The notes beneath the pieces are model-generated. The model saw only the letters and a list, made by a program, of their open reading frames with translations. It did no database searches and was not told where the DNA came from. Made by a program: the position numbers and the translations under genes. Below, in pieces: positions 22,327 through 27,034 of a stretch of DNA of 64,000 nt. Positions within the stretch are counted from its first letter, which is position 1. Every line of letters begins with the position of its first letter. The stretch comes from Lacunisphaera sp. Lineage in GTDB: Bacteria > Verrucomicrobiota > Verrucomicrobiia > Opitutales > Opitutaceae. The stretch spans positions 62,001-126,000 of the forward strand of contig JAQSCO010000051.1 of assembly GCA_029945445.1 (NCBI GenBank). The letters run 5' to 3'.

Positions 22327-23079
22327 TCAGGCCGCGGCGCGGCGCGAGCGACGGACGAGCACCAGTCCCAGTGCGCCCAGCCCGAAGATTGCGGCGTAGG
22401 TCGAGGATTCGGGGACGGCCACGGCGTTGATCGTGTAGCCCTGGCCGGCCGAATTCATTTGGAACGCCAGGACATCGAAGGCCAAGGTGGAGTAGTTGAG
22501 CTTGAGGTAAAAATCTAAAGTCTTCGCGCCACCACCCGACACATAGGTCGAGGTGGTGTAGTTGTATGTGCCGGTGAATGTCGCGGGACTTGAGTTAAAG
22601 TTCCCGGAGCTGATAGTCTGATAGCCGGCGCTGTCCCCACTTATTGTGGCTTGGAGGTTCCAGGTCACGTTACCGATGGTGCCCGCCTGTTTGCTCAGGG
22701 TGAAGTCGTAGGCCAGCGGGATGACCGTCGAGATAGGTATGTCCTGGCCAGAGATGGCGCTGCTTACTAAAATGGAGATGGTAGCGCTCCCGGGGTCCGT
22801 GGTGGTGAAGGTTCCGTCAACGCCGAGCCGCGTGGTGGTGAGGTTGTTGGCCACGGATCCCGGGGAAAAGAATGGGCTAAATGAATCCGTGATAGAGGCG
22901 CTGCCCGTATCATAACCGATTGTGATGCCTGGTGAGCCAAAAATAGTCTGGGCTTTGGCTTCCGGTGCCAAGCTAACGGCGGCGAGCGGAACTATGACGA
23001 GGACGGTCGTGCCGGCGGACTTGCGGATGAAATTCTTGGCCGCGCCCAGCAGGGTGAAACGGACAGGCGTGGCTTCCAT
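22327..23079 (-). CDS. PEP-CTERM sorting domain protein
   Basis: A 250-residue protein from ATG 23079. It has a long N-terminal signal (TTVLVIVPLAAVSLAPEAKA), a Ser/Thr/Gly-rich body with beta-strand periodicity, and a C-terminal tripartite sorting signal: VPESSTYAAIFGLGALGLVLVRRSRR (motif, membrane helix, basic tail). Such proteins are processed by an exosortase and exported with exopolysaccharide; no exosortase gene is in this window. The body is richer in A/T and in Ser/Thr than its neighbours. A longer frame to 23289 would overlap the PilZ-like stump and is rejected. The gene ends 4 bases before the glycosyltransferase start, so they may be cotranscribed. Confidence 0.85.
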   Translation of the reverse strand: MEATPVRFTLLGAAKNFIRKSAGTTVLVIVPLAAVSLAPEAKAQTIFGSPGITIGYDTGSASITDSFSPFFSPGSVANNLTTTRLGVDGTFTTTDPGSATISILVSSAISGQDIPISTVIPLAYDFTLSKQAGTIGNVTWNLQATISGDSAGYQTISSGNFNSSPATFTGTYNYTTSTYVSGGGAKTLDFYLKLNYSTLAFDVLAFQMNSAGQGYTINAVAVPESSTYAAIFGLGALGLVLVRRSRRAAA

Positions 23080-23182
23080 GTCGCGAAAGGCTGCAGGATT
23101 TTTTCCAGCTGGCGACCCCAAAAATGCCACCAGGGAACGGGCCACAGCCTGGCTTAATGACTCGAAACCTAGCCACTTCGTG

Positions 23183-23260
23183 TTCCACTGGGTCGTGCCC
23201 AACCTTGCCGCGTGCGTCCCGGAGGACGTGCGGAAATTCCTGTCGAAGCACTCCGCCTGA
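23183..23260 (+). pseudogene. 3' stump of a fourth PilZ-like paralogue
   Basis: The segment encodes FHWVVPNLAACVPEDVRKFL followed by SKHSA and a stop. This is the exact C-terminal tail of the PilZ-like family, with nucleotide identity close to paralogues 2 (21036-21113) and 3 (25484-25561). The rest of the gene is missing: upstream there is only about 100 bases before the start of the divergent PEP-CTERM gene. It is a deletion or replacement remnant. Confidence 0.85.
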
Positions 23261-24479: not shown

Positions 24480-24766
24480 GCTGCGTGACCGCACTATACG
24501 CGACCTGACCCTTTTTGATCGTCATGTGATCTGCCCCTTTTGATCGTCTTTGGCCGGACCGGGAGCCGGGTAGGCCAATGCCCTATGGCTGGAGTGACGC
24601 TGACCGCGTATCGTTCGGGCCCAATGTCCGCCCTCCGGTCCGCCCTCCGAAGCCCCGCCACTTGCCCGGAGGCGGGGCCGGTCGCAGCGGTCGGGCCGGT
24701 CAGGATGATGCGGTGCGCCGGCCCGGCCCGACCTTTTCGATCTCCCTCTTTCCCTCCGCCATTCCG

Positions 24767-25561
24767 ATGCAATTCTTCCAGCGCCTTTTCCAGCAACCCA
24801 AGCCGGTGATCAAGCTGTCCGCCGCGCCGCCTGCCGCGCCGGGCGAGATCCGGCCGGAACGCCGGCTCGTGCCGCGCTATGTGGTGCATCCGAAATTTCC
24901 GCTCAAGGCTGCGCTCACCATCCTCGGCCCGGAGACGAAGGGTGTCCGGGTGGCGAACTCGCGCATCGGCTGGGATTGGAAAGGCCGCCTGGTGTGTTTT
25001 TCCACGCTCGGCGCGGGCATGCAGATGCTCGAGGCGGCCAAGGCGGCCACCGGCGACGCCTGCGAGCTCAAGCTCAGCTTGGGCGACGCGGTGCTGGTGA
25101 TCCCCTGCCATATCACCAACGTCCGCGTGCAGGCCGGGGGCCTTTTCTACGGCTTGAAACATGACATCACCGACCCTGTGACGCGGGCCGCCTACCAGGA
25201 ACTGTTCGACATCGTGGCCCTGGGGGCCCGGCTCGAGCCGGTTTTGAAGCGGACCAAGCCCGACCACAGCGGCTACCTGGTGGAGCAATATGCGAGCGAC
25301 CGGCAATCCCGCCTGACGGTCTGGCGGCATCAGTCCGACGGGACCGTGGCGGCCGTTGAATTCATGCTGCGCGACGGCCGCGTGCAGGTGGCGGAGGGAC
25401 ATGCGGTCAAATACCAGGGCGGCGCCGATGCCGCCACCGCCCGCAAGGCGACGCCGGAGAAGCGGGCGGAAATCGAGCACCTGTTCCACTGGGTCGTGCC
25501 CAACCTCGCCGCGTGCGTGCCGGAGGACGTGCGGGAATTCCTGGAGAAACACGCCGTCTGA
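24767..25561 (+). CDS. PilZ-like paralogue 3
   Basis: A 264-residue protein from ATG 24767, which restores the family N-terminus MQFFQRLFQQPK; the open frame further upstream is not protein-like. The domain layout is as in the other copies: ERRLVPRYVVHPKF (RxxxR kept), FSTLGAGMQM in place of [DN]xSxxG (first residue lost), VLVIPCHITNVRVQAGGLFY, then YLVEQYASDRQSRLTVWRH and FHWVVPNLAACVPEDVREFL with a final EKHAV. The changed second motif makes cyclic di-GMP binding uncertain. It converges with the small membrane protein gene. Confidence 0.73.
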   Translation: MQFFQRLFQQPKPVIKLSAAPPAAPGEIRPERRLVPRYVVHPKFPLKAALTILGPETKGVRVANSRIGWDWKGRLVCFSTLGAGMQMLEAAKAATGDACELKLSLGDAVLVIPCHITNVRVQAGGLFYGLKHDITDPVTRAAYQELFDIVALGARLEPVLKRTKPDHSGYLVEQYASDRQSRLTVWRHQSDGTVAAVEFMLRDGRVQVAEGHAVKYQGGADAATARKATPEKRAEIEHLFHWVVPNLAACVPEDVREFLEKHAV

Positions 25562-25618: not shown

Positions 25619-25921
25619 TCAGGCCAGCCAGCCGATCACCGCGCCGCCGGCGGTGCCGAGAACCAGGATGGGCACGTAGGCCTTGGTGATGATCGCGTCG
25701 GGCAGGCTGAGCAACAGGCCGAGGCCCGCGCCGAGCGCCCAGCCGGGCGAGGCGGGCAGTGCGACGTGCGCGAGAGGAATCACCAACCCGACGCCGAAGC
25801 GGTTGAGGAAAGCGCCGAGCAACGCGGCGCGCTTGTCGGGGAACTTCATCGGCAGCATGCTCGCGGCGGACAGCGCGCCGAAAACCAGCCCGGCGACCAA
25901 GCCATGCACGAGGGGTATCAT
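25619..25921 (-). CDS. Small integral membrane protein
   Basis: A 100-residue protein with three or four hydrophobic helices (HGLVAGLVFGALSAASMLP, GVGLVIPLAHVALPA, WALGAGLGLLLSLPDAI, PILVLGTAGGAVIGWL) and almost no soluble part. A gene of this size and hydropathy is credible; I do not recognise a family with certainty. The repeated small residues suggest a tightly packed helix bundle. It is a single gene, divergent from the HTH cassette 130 bases away. Confidence 0.7.
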   Translation of the reverse strand: MIPLVHGLVAGLVFGALSAASMLPMKFPDKRAALLGAFLNRFGVGLVIPLAHVALPASPGWALGAGLGLLLSLPDAIITKAYVPILVLGTAGGAVIGWLA

Positions 25922-26049
25922 GTGCCGGAGTTAACTCCCCGTCGACCGGGCAGGCCAGACATTATCCGCGCCCCACCGCGCCATCCGCGCCTAGATCCCC
26001 TTCGCGCCCGCTAAATCCACCGGCCGGCCTTCCCGCACTTGCGCCGGGC

Positions 26050-26072
26050 CAATGTTCGTAATACGAACATTG
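26050..26072. promoter_or_regulatory. Palindrome directly upstream of the HTH gene
   Basis: A perfect 11-1-11 palindrome with half-site CAATGTTCGTA ends one base before the ATG of the HTH gene. It would cover the ribosome binding site, so a protein bound here could block transcription or initiation. It is almost identical to the palindrome at the other end of the gene. Confidence 0.8.
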
Positions 26073-26073
26073 C

Positions 26074-26442
26074 ATGAACAGATACATGCCTTCGAAACTG
26101 GCCGGTGTGGTGGCCCTGGCGGAGATAATCAATGTGCTCGGCGAGGAACTGACCAAGGAGATGCATCGGCGGCGGGAGGCCCGGCGCCCGCGGATCAAAC
26201 GCGGCGCGACCTTGCGACCGAGCGACGACACGCCGTTGTGGAATGCGGTGATTTCCCTTGTAGAGCCGCGGCTCCGCCGGCGGGGAGCCCGGGCGCTGCT
26301 GGCCCGCGAACTGGGACTGCACCGGGCCCGAATCGGCGAGTATTTCAAGCGCTCCTCGGCCATGCCCGACGCCGAGCGCACGCTCCGCCTGCTGGTCTGG
26401 CTCAGCCGCCAGCCGCTGGAGAAACCGGATGCGGTATTCTGA
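26074..26442 (+). CDS. HTH (Xre-like) protein in a palindrome-bracketed cassette
   Basis: A 122-residue basic protein. The C-terminal half (about 72-115) reads GARALLARELGLHRARIG then EYFKRSSAMPDAERTLRLL, which is an Xre/Cro-type helix-turn-helix with the usual small residue at the turn and a Pro after the recognition helix. The N-terminal half (LAEIINVLGEELTKEMHRRR) is a charged helix, perhaps for dimerisation. The ATG at 26074 is one base after a 23-bp palindrome and the stop overlaps a 27-bp palindrome with the same half-site. No Shine-Dalgarno sequence is present. The start at 26089 (MPSK) is an alternative. Autoregulation through the palindromes is likely. Confidence 0.72.
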   Translation: MNRYMPSKLAGVVALAEIINVLGEELTKEMHRRREARRPRIKRGATLRPSDDTPLWNAVISLVEPRLRRRGARALLARELGLHRARIGEYFKRSSAMPDAERTLRLLVWLSRQPLEKPDAVF

Positions 26443-26468
26443 CCAATGTTCGTATTACGAACATTGGT
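26442..26468. repeat. Palindrome overlapping the HTH stop codon
   Basis: A perfect 13-1-13 palindrome with half-site ACCAATGTTCGTA. Its core AATGTTCGTA is identical to that of the palindrome at 26050-26072; only the central base (T instead of A) and the flanks differ. The TGA stop of the HTH gene uses its first base. Confidence 0.8.
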
Positions 26469-26499
26469 GCTTTAGCACGGGAGGGATTGACGCGGGCCC

Positions 26500-27034
26500 T
26501 CAGGCCGGGGCGGGGGTGAGGGTGAGGGTGAGGGTGGTTTGGCGGACGGCGTGGCGGAAAAGGAGGCCTGAGGCGACGAACATCGCGACGAAGCCGGAAT
26601 TCAGGAGGAAGACGTTCGCCACGCCGGGGCTGAAGTCGGCCGACCAGCGGATGATGGCGACCACGGGGATCAGGAAGAGGGCGGCGGCCATGCTGAAGGC
26701 GACCTTCGCCAGGCCGGCGGGCCGCCGAGGACGGTCAGGAGATAAAACCCGTTGGCCGGATTGTCCTCGCCGATGATCTGCGCCGCGAGGTTGACCCAGG
26801 TGATGAGGAAGCCGCCCAAAACCCGAGGCCAGCGCCGAGCCGGTAGCTCAGGTTGGACCATGAGCGCGTCACCAGCAGACGGTAGGTGAAGGTCGTGAGG
26901 GCGAAGGCCACGTAGGCGAAAAGAAAGTCGTGCCACTTCCAGTCCCAGCCCTCGACGGTGAAGCTCCCGACCAGCGGGAGCAGCAGCAGGGCCAACGGCA
27001 CGAGGGCCACGATGAGATAATCTTGGCGTTTCAT
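26500..27034 (-). pseudogene. Frameshifted membrane protein gene
   Basis: Three overlapping minus-strand frames together make one plausible membrane protein of about 178 residues. The N-terminal part (MKRQDYLIVALVPLALLLLP to NLSYRLGAGLG) starts at 27034; the middle (FLITWVNLAAQIIGEDNPAN, then GFYLLTVLGGPP) is in a second frame; the end (MAAALFLIPVVAIIRWSADF, then FRHAVRQTTLTLTLTPAPA) is in a third, ending at 26500. Shifts are needed near 26820 and near 26715, both in short G/C homopolymer runs. Either the gene is decayed or the sequence has two indel errors. The last codons lie in a GGTGAG tandem repeat (about 26513-26536). Function unknown. Confidence 0.7.

Follow-up and report, generated by a model that had tools for sequence, protein, structure and literature searches.

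Why should a small gene carry nearly the same perfect palindrome at both its start and its stop codon? This question is raised by a locus in the window, i.e., the whole 64-kb stretch of DNA analysed here, in which a gene for a predicted Cro/Xre-like helix-turn-helix protein is bracketed in this manner (Table 1). The sequence-only reading of the locus had offered two answers, namely a minimal mobile or domesticated cassette, the ends of which are recognised by the protein it encodes, or an autorepressor with a second site controlling readthrough. The finding that emerges from related genomes is broader than the one first stated, and concerns a family-wide set of putative DNA-binding genes with private, co-evolving palindromes.

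The bracketed gene and its protein

The 23- and 27-bp perfect palindromes around the 122-residue gene were confirmed in their coordinates, as was the earlier observation that their cores (AATGTTCGTAnTACGAACATT, at 26051 and 26445) are the same save for the central base. With up to three mismatches allowed, the cores are matched only twice in the 64 kb, by the bracketing pair itself, and none of 100 dinucleotide shuffles contained any core match at this threshold. Reading of the sequence by eye likewise bore out the absence of a Shine-Dalgarno-like stretch before the ATG. A role of the palindromes as promoters was rejected, no sigma-70-like promoter having been found in 25900-26600, as was a role as terminator, the single terminator-like match (26231-26250) lying away from them.

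Table 1. Positions, within the window, of the bracketed gene, its palindromes and the segments of its predicted protein
Feature	Coordinates	Strand	Basis or remark
Upstream palindrome, 23 bp, CAATGTTCGTAATACGAACATTG	26050..26072	.	ends 1 bp before the ATG (26074)
Gene for predicted Cro/Xre-like helix-turn-helix protein, 122 aa, stop codon counted in	26074..26442	+	ORF list, alignments, model
Predicted long N-terminal helix, residues 7-34	26092..26175	+	AlphaFold2, block pLDDT 60-78
Conserved TLRPxxDTPLWN segment, residues 46-57	26209..26244	+	two alignments
Predicted helix-turn-helix, residues 72-91	26287..26346	+	AlphaFold2 helices 72-80 and 84-91, block pLDDT 87-94
Predicted recognition helix, residues 84-91	26323-26346	+	AlphaFold2; covaries with site bases
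Invariant D99-A100-E101, start of last helix	26368..26376	+	alignments and AlphaFold2
Downstream palindrome, 27 bp, ACCAATGTTCGTATTACGAACATTGGT	26442..26468	.	begins on the final base of the TGA stop (26440-26442)

Searches of Pfam, NCBIfam and PHROGs gave no significant match for the window protein, and the best signals among it and its homologues, YdaS, HTH_3 and HigA, are all sub-threshold; similarity to YdaS was seen below the Pfam cut-off in five of seven homologues scanned (E 0.0052 to 0.22), and to Pfam HTH_3 in one homologue (E 0.033). Its AlphaFold2 model (mean pLDDT 78) consists of the N-terminal helix followed by helices at residues 54-68, 72-80, 84-91 and 100-112. VIA-align ranks HNF-1A first (Z 7.0) and scores domains of LexA, C proteins and phage repressors at 5 to 6.6, which suggests a Cro/Xre fold for the modelled protein; Foldseek with the same model returned nothing at E 0.001 or better. 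The earlier label "Xre-like" is a reasonable one in this light, with weak sequence support, the Pfam matches lying below the cut-off. Pfam gave no transposase or recombinase match for the window protein and no transposase match among the homologues scanned, for which there was also no TetR or ParB family match in Pfam/NCBIfam at E up to 10. W56 never varies in either of the two alignments; T46, P49, T53 and P54 never vary in one of them and reach at least 90% conservation in the second. Across 50 aligned homologues, no column that is invariant or 90% conserved holds His or Tyr.

Homologues were detected in 25 of 57 related genomes, with up to eight per genome. A scan of named genomes confirmed 101 homologues, and among the best 80 of these 101, 65 are labelled Opitutaceae, Opitutae, Opitutia or with a genus name (e.g., Opitutus, Lacunisphaera, Oleiharenicola, Rariglobus, Didemnitutus) and 15 Verrucomicrobia or Verrucomicrobiota only. 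The protein family is accordingly one of the Opitutaceae and relatives (Verrucomicrobiota). Spread by phage or plasmid was rejected, since no homologue was recovered from plasmid or phage collections by tblastn with the window protein, nor from viral contigs searched with an alignment of the family (A1).

In the orthologues L006, L007 and L008 the upstream palindrome is similarly placed, and the downstream palindrome also follows the stop codon in the orthologues of G016 and G020; for the class-1 gene of G018 no downstream site was found within 450 bp after the stop. Between the genome containing the window (G000; 4.17 Mb in 66 contigs) and G016/G020, DNA homology spans 26048-26468, with the palindromes as its edges; such edges would also arise if constraint merely ended at the palindromes. 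The downstream neighbour of the gene is kept in all three genomes, and in G016 and G020 the two are separated by an additional 1 to 2 kb. Elsewhere in the window, two plus-strand ORFs (22922-23260 and 24578-25561) end in a nearly identical peptide (HWVVPNLAACVPEDVR-FL-KH), and these ends lie 2.3 kb apart, a pattern suggestive of partial gene duplication.

Class-specific palindromes and their covariation with the protein

Where the recognition helix differs between homologues, so does the bracketing palindrome. Each specificity class has its own odd-length palindrome, of the form GTnnnnTAnTAnnnnAC in most and TGTTCGTAnTACGAACA in the window's class, and the bracketing sequences of other homologues, which are alike in form, include GTAACGTAnTACGTTAC, GTCACGTAnTACGTGAC, GTCAACTAnTAGTTGAC, GTCAC[CT]TA types, GTAGTCTA, GTCATCTA and TTTCACGTA, among others. 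When related genomes were checked for such pairs, as the sequence-only reading had proposed, a palindrome with at most one mismatch was found at both ends of 48 of the 76 homologues whose flanks were long enough (the window and 75 of 80 loci), upstream in 56 and downstream in 57; base-shuffled flanks gave palindromes at both ends in 0.026% of 3800 cases. A second motif definition, with the window's class left out, recovered bracketing in 49/75. Among the homologues that failed, several have sites that are visible by eye but asymmetric or weaker, and some asymmetric sites face in opposite directions at the two ends of the gene (L010, L011; G012). In one clade (L032, L173, L179) the TAA stop codon lies inside the palindrome. 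Extended hairpin arms were rejected as a general trait of class 1, since over 86 sites the arms, once more than about 12 bp from the centre, are hardly more complementary than composition would predict; arms of 41-43 bp are present in some other classes. Two genomes contain, near homologues (L025, L026), 41-bp perfect palindromes (GACGCTCTGTTTGTAATATAnTATATTACAAACAGAGCGTC) which are far longer than the binding core.

Comparison of the protein with its site by Mantel tests gave a rho of 0.459 (p 0.001) for the helix-turn-helix region against the half-site and of 0.177 for the N-terminal region, in both cases over 74 of 81 homologues, the seven others having no qualifying site. In particular, Arg84-Gln85 coincides with an outer G in 62/62 rows, and other dipeptides at this position (Pro-Gln, Arg-Ala, Arg-Gly, Pro-Ala, Ala-Pro, Pro-Ser) with an outer G in 0/12; the rows being related to one another, these counts exceed the number of independent events, and the helix-site covariation comes in part from relatives sharing both.

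Co-occurrence points in the same direction. The class-2 site pattern is present in nine of 21 congeneric genomes, the same nine that encode a class-2 helix (RQ[AG][VI]NE[YF]F), and in none of the 12 others, with up to dozens of copies per genome and a single site in two of the nine. As this pattern was designed from the flanks of the homologues, its presence in the nine genomes is partly built in, and the information lies in the additional copies and in the 12 genomes with none. Further, gene and sites look as if they are lost together, which we count as support: in G019 a class-2 homologue (L019, on contig C35) has an in-frame TAA just past the recognition helix and one class-2 site is left in the genome, and in G003, for which the related-genome search found no class-1 homologue, the RsmB gene carries a seemingly decayed site. 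As to genomic neighbourhood, EamA transporter genes (Pfam) lie near both sides of the class-2 homologues L220 (G000) and L223 (G012), and an EamA-like neighbourhood of class-2 homologues appears similar by eye in four more genomes (L011, L014, L020, L171).

Covariation and co-occurrence together indicate that the protein very probably binds its own palindrome, presumably as a dimer, and the earlier proposal that it recognises the palindromes at its own ends gains from most homologues being bracketed by their own version. As the upstream copy overlaps the start region, the protein would be expected to repress its own gene, autoregulation following from a site at the start codon; the downstream copy could aid by cooperative binding or block readthrough. 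The autorepressor half of the original proposal, including its second site, is plausible in these terms. If binding is as proposed, more than 10 paired specificities of protein and palindrome would exist in one bacterial family, with a recognition code visible in the sequence, and protein-DNA co-evolution would become testable at orthologous positions.

Dispersed palindromes across the chromosome

In G000, TTCGTAnTACGAA occurs in eight copies, with 0.04 predicted by composition in 4.17 Mb, and GTTCGTAnTACGAAC likewise in eight, with 0.004 predicted; the reversed control pattern has none. Copies of TTCGTAnTACGAA number 52 in G016, 28 in G020 and 10 in G018, with one to four in five more genomes and none in 12. 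Other classes reach comparable numbers, with 37 copies of TTCACGTAnTACGTGAA in G023 and 35 of the GTCACGTA class in G026. A dozen TTCGTAnTACGAA sites are found in genomes without a detected cognate gene (G010, G007, G011, G003, G012), and GTAACCTA-type palindromes, some with altered centres, are present in G012 (six or seven) and G003 (three) with no obvious cognate among the homologues; sites of this kind may be relics.

The dispersed sites are often paired, with spacings in G016 clustering at 52-54, 62-63, 72-76 and 119-122. At a fixed period of 10.5 bp, pair spacing is phased in G016 (p 0.0004, n=20), G020 (p 0.019, n=11) and G026 (p 0.0008, n=16) and unphased in G023 (p 0.49, n=7); helical phasing is only approximate, because the best-fitting periods are 11.1 in G016, 11.2 in G020 and 9.2 in G026. 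Inverted doublets are common, the centre order being T..A in 11 of 17 close pairs of G016 (p 0.0006), and all five class-2 pairs of G012 are inverted. The spacers of pairs show a mutual resemblance of 0.422 versus 0.354 in shuffles. Classification of 69 sites with a crude gene caller placed 42 in intergenic regions (16 in tandem gaps, 15 between convergent and 11 between divergent genes) and 27 in ORFs. In the ORFs that were read, the palindrome is translated mostly as N-V-R-(N/I)-T-N, and as M/K-F-V-I-R-T in three; all five in-ORF pairs are spaced by 54, a multiple of three. The genes with or near sites, e.g., IspG, NnrD, MutY and Mpl (by eye) and RsmB (Pfam), have no common theme.

The sites are retained rather than decaying. 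Relaxing the search in G016, the genome to which this test for degenerate copies was applied, to three mismatches over the 21-mer still yields 52 sites, and the 50 sites listed have no mismatch in the central 15 bp. By flanking sequence, site loci of G016 correspond to 12 of the 16 in G020, one of them that of the gene itself, and further loci are shared by G016/G000, G018/G000, G016/G000/G010, G020/G007/G011 and G000/G018/G007. Identity of the 13-bp core at shared sites was given no weight, the sites having been located by that very core, nor was the matching spacer value, which one locus with two groups of sites (L058) distorts. At the base eight positions from the centre, on both arms, T occupies 97 of 102 half-sites in G016 and A 43 of 56 in G020. 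Eight G020 sites keep T on one or both arms, and in five of these (L155, L156, L160, L164, L167) the orthologous site lies inside an ORF, so that T may have been kept there through coding constraint.

Comparisons of site-bearing and site-free genes bear on how the sites arose. In 14 of the 17 genomes inspected, RsmB (Pfam) is without an intact site and has the same length as in G016 and G020, from which it is drawn that the site replaced native codons without insertion. One of these 14 is the G003 gene with the apparent decayed site; in G018, RsmB is 54 bp longer and contains a site pair. The same length-neutral replacement is seen on comparison of a family-2 glycoside hydrolase gene (L067, Pfam) with G003. 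The intergenic regions with a pair (L059) or a triple (L068) of sites are longer than their site-free counterparts in G012. These comparisons leave out MoeA, and L064/L065 versus G003, which align poorly at the site. For the length-neutral origin, selection is the only mechanism offered, and the dispersed sites look selected.

With respect to chromosome position, GC skew places the origin near 1.1 Mb and the terminus near 4.35 Mb in G023, and near 0.1 Mb and 2.4 Mb, respectively, of C1 in G016; the skew of G012 is noisy. A 2.13-Mb site-free gap in G023 (p 0.003) has the terminus near its end and not at its centre. The outer fifth of the arms contains one of 21 loci in G023, one to two of 11 in G012 and two to three of 29 in G016 (one-sided KS p 0.03 to 0.13), which makes depletion of sites near the terminus suggestive at best.

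Competing explanations and known systems

We regard the further chromosomal copies, often inverted pairs in rough helical phase, as probably being functional sites held by selection. On balance, the sequence data also favour the conjunction of binding, autorepression and selected dispersed sites; the class-1 gene of G018 with no downstream site, the unphased pairs of G023 and the sites with no cognate gene are counted against this explanation. The dispersed sites might serve a chromosome-wide purpose, e.g., nucleoid organisation or occlusion, in the manner of the unrelated SlmA, Noc and MatP, a suggestion which we put forward tentatively. It fits the position-independence and strictness of the sites; the presence of up to eight homologues per genome is unusual for a chromosome organiser and is counted against it. 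Equally tentative is the wider picture of an undescribed genome-wide system, in which one bacterial family would hold several orthogonal DNA-binding proteins, each with private perfect palindromes around its own gene and across the chromosome. A population would change bases in concert with the protein (as in G016 versus G020), and new sites would overwrite codons length-neutrally, being written either by strong selection on an architectural function or by some copying mechanism.

The main rival is a repeat system like that of REPINs and RAYTs, in which the doublets would be semi-selfish spreading repeats and the gene kept with them would encode a DNA-binding protein instead of a tyrosine transposase, another enzyme doing the copying. 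In the portion of PMC3116915 available, REPIN-RAYT systems are described as having distinct gene classes, each flanked by its own palindrome class, and doublets that are inverted; the same layout is found here, with a dedicated gene between palindromes of its own class, several classes that are orthogonal within one genome, doublets that are inverted in G016 and G012, and copies that are mostly intergenic; the longer intergenic regions around L059 and L068 also speak for such a system. Bracketing, orthogonality of the classes and inversion of the doublets are all as it would predict; what is missing is the transposase: the gene here is Cro/Xre-like, with no Pfam match to Y1/HUH tyrosine transposases and no conserved His or Tyr. 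Further, the spacers are barely alike, degenerate copies are absent from the 50 listed G016 sites, many sites are orthologous, and those inside genes can be length-neutral replacements (RsmB, L067) and not insertions. The rival is rather unlikely, if still the strongest. The predicted fold and the site at the start codon would also suit an ordinary autoregulated transcription factor with the dispersed palindromes as the operators of its regulon, as would the sites between divergent genes and in tandem gaps. This is a good deal less probable, as 27 of the 69 sites are within ORFs, 15 are flanked by convergent genes, and no theme unites the genes concerned. A decoy role, whereby free protein would be harmful and the number of perfect sites, wherever placed, would be selected to soak it up, accounts for selection without fixed position, and the protein's faint similarity to YdaS lends it something; orthologous positions and spacing are left unexplained by a decoy alone, and we consider it very improbable.

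The minimal mobile or domesticated cassette with which the inquiry began has in its favour that palindromes surround most homologues, some asymmetric ones being inverted at the ends. Older within-genome duplicates also speak for it, the closest being L186/L194 in G018 (81% over 349 bp), along with L030/L186, which share integrase and gene (68% over 1213 bp), and, in G010, G014 and G017, several with identities of 67 to 78%. No near-identical second copy of a gene-palindrome unit was seen, the 81% pair being the closest within a genome. The sequence-only reading had held that the cassette idea fails if palindromes are scattered without the gene. They are so dispersed (eight in G000, 52 and 28 in two relatives), and because of this, and because the downstream neighbour is kept in three genomes, the cassette was rejected for the window's class; the window protein additionally has no transposase or recombinase match. 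The reading is largely refuted there and, overall, very improbable; the older duplicates keep it open in other classes.

Returning to autorepression combined with selected dispersed sites, comparison with described systems sharpens what is distinctive. Restriction controller (C) proteins, phage repressors and other Xre/Cro regulators resemble the window protein in helix arrangement (VIA-align Z up to 6.6) and in having a site at their own start codon; unlike in these autoregulators, a second site is present here at the stop codon, with tens of identical sites elsewhere, some inside genes. SlmA with its SBS and Noc with its NBS are, like the present proteins, associated with tens of dispersed palindromic sites recognised by a specific DNA-binding protein: the accessible part of PMC4726725 gives 24-52 sites for SlmA and about 70 for Noc, under-represented at the terminus, against 52 in G016, 37 in G023, 35 in G026 and 28 in G020. 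Unlike these, G000 has only eight sites, terminus depletion is only weak, the proteins match neither the TetR family of SlmA nor the ParB family of Noc, the gene is bracketed by sites, and several orthogonal versions occur per genome.

Palindromes in frame inside coding sequence are shared with the Rickettsia palindromic elements (RPE) and the intragenic GTAG REPs of Opitutus terrae, both treated in the accessible part of PMC3733652. The GTAG/CGTC repeats differ in having a tag at one end and in being described there as insertions, whereas here the two halves of a site mirror each other around a TAnTA centre and, in two genes, the site has replaced native codons without change of length; this distinction from the O. 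terrae repeats is judged by the definition of the GTAG tag alone. The matches listed in literature searches on palindromic or interspersed repeats of Opitutaceae, Opitutus and Verrucomicrobia/Verrucomicrobiota include no such system, and the accessible portion of the REP survey PMC12306157 has no match to the terms looked up. If the proposed reading holds, dispersed palindromes would here be accompanied by a dedicated DNA-binding gene instead of a transposase gene, a case relevant to the question of why REP-like repeats are kept in bacteria, and the sites would be candidate chromosome-organising elements in Verrucomicrobiota.

With regard to insertion sequences and MITEs, no transposase was matched by Pfam among the homologues scanned, and the closest within-genome unit pair is 81% identical. 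The locus is distinct from an integron gene cassette. In such a cassette an attC site, with a GTTRRRY box, is present at the 3' end only; the site here reads GTTCGTA, with palindromes at both ends, and Pfam detected no integrase in the six neighbouring ORFs scanned. As a separate observation, integron integrases (TIGR02249, E about 1e-110) lie directly upstream of other homologues at the loci L217 (8626-9846; G000, contig C56), L218 and L219 (both G018, contig C5). The two G018 units share 68% DNA identity over integrase and gene, and upstream of the L217 integrase there is a 3.4-kb stretch with no strong ORF by codon usage, which could be a cassette array.
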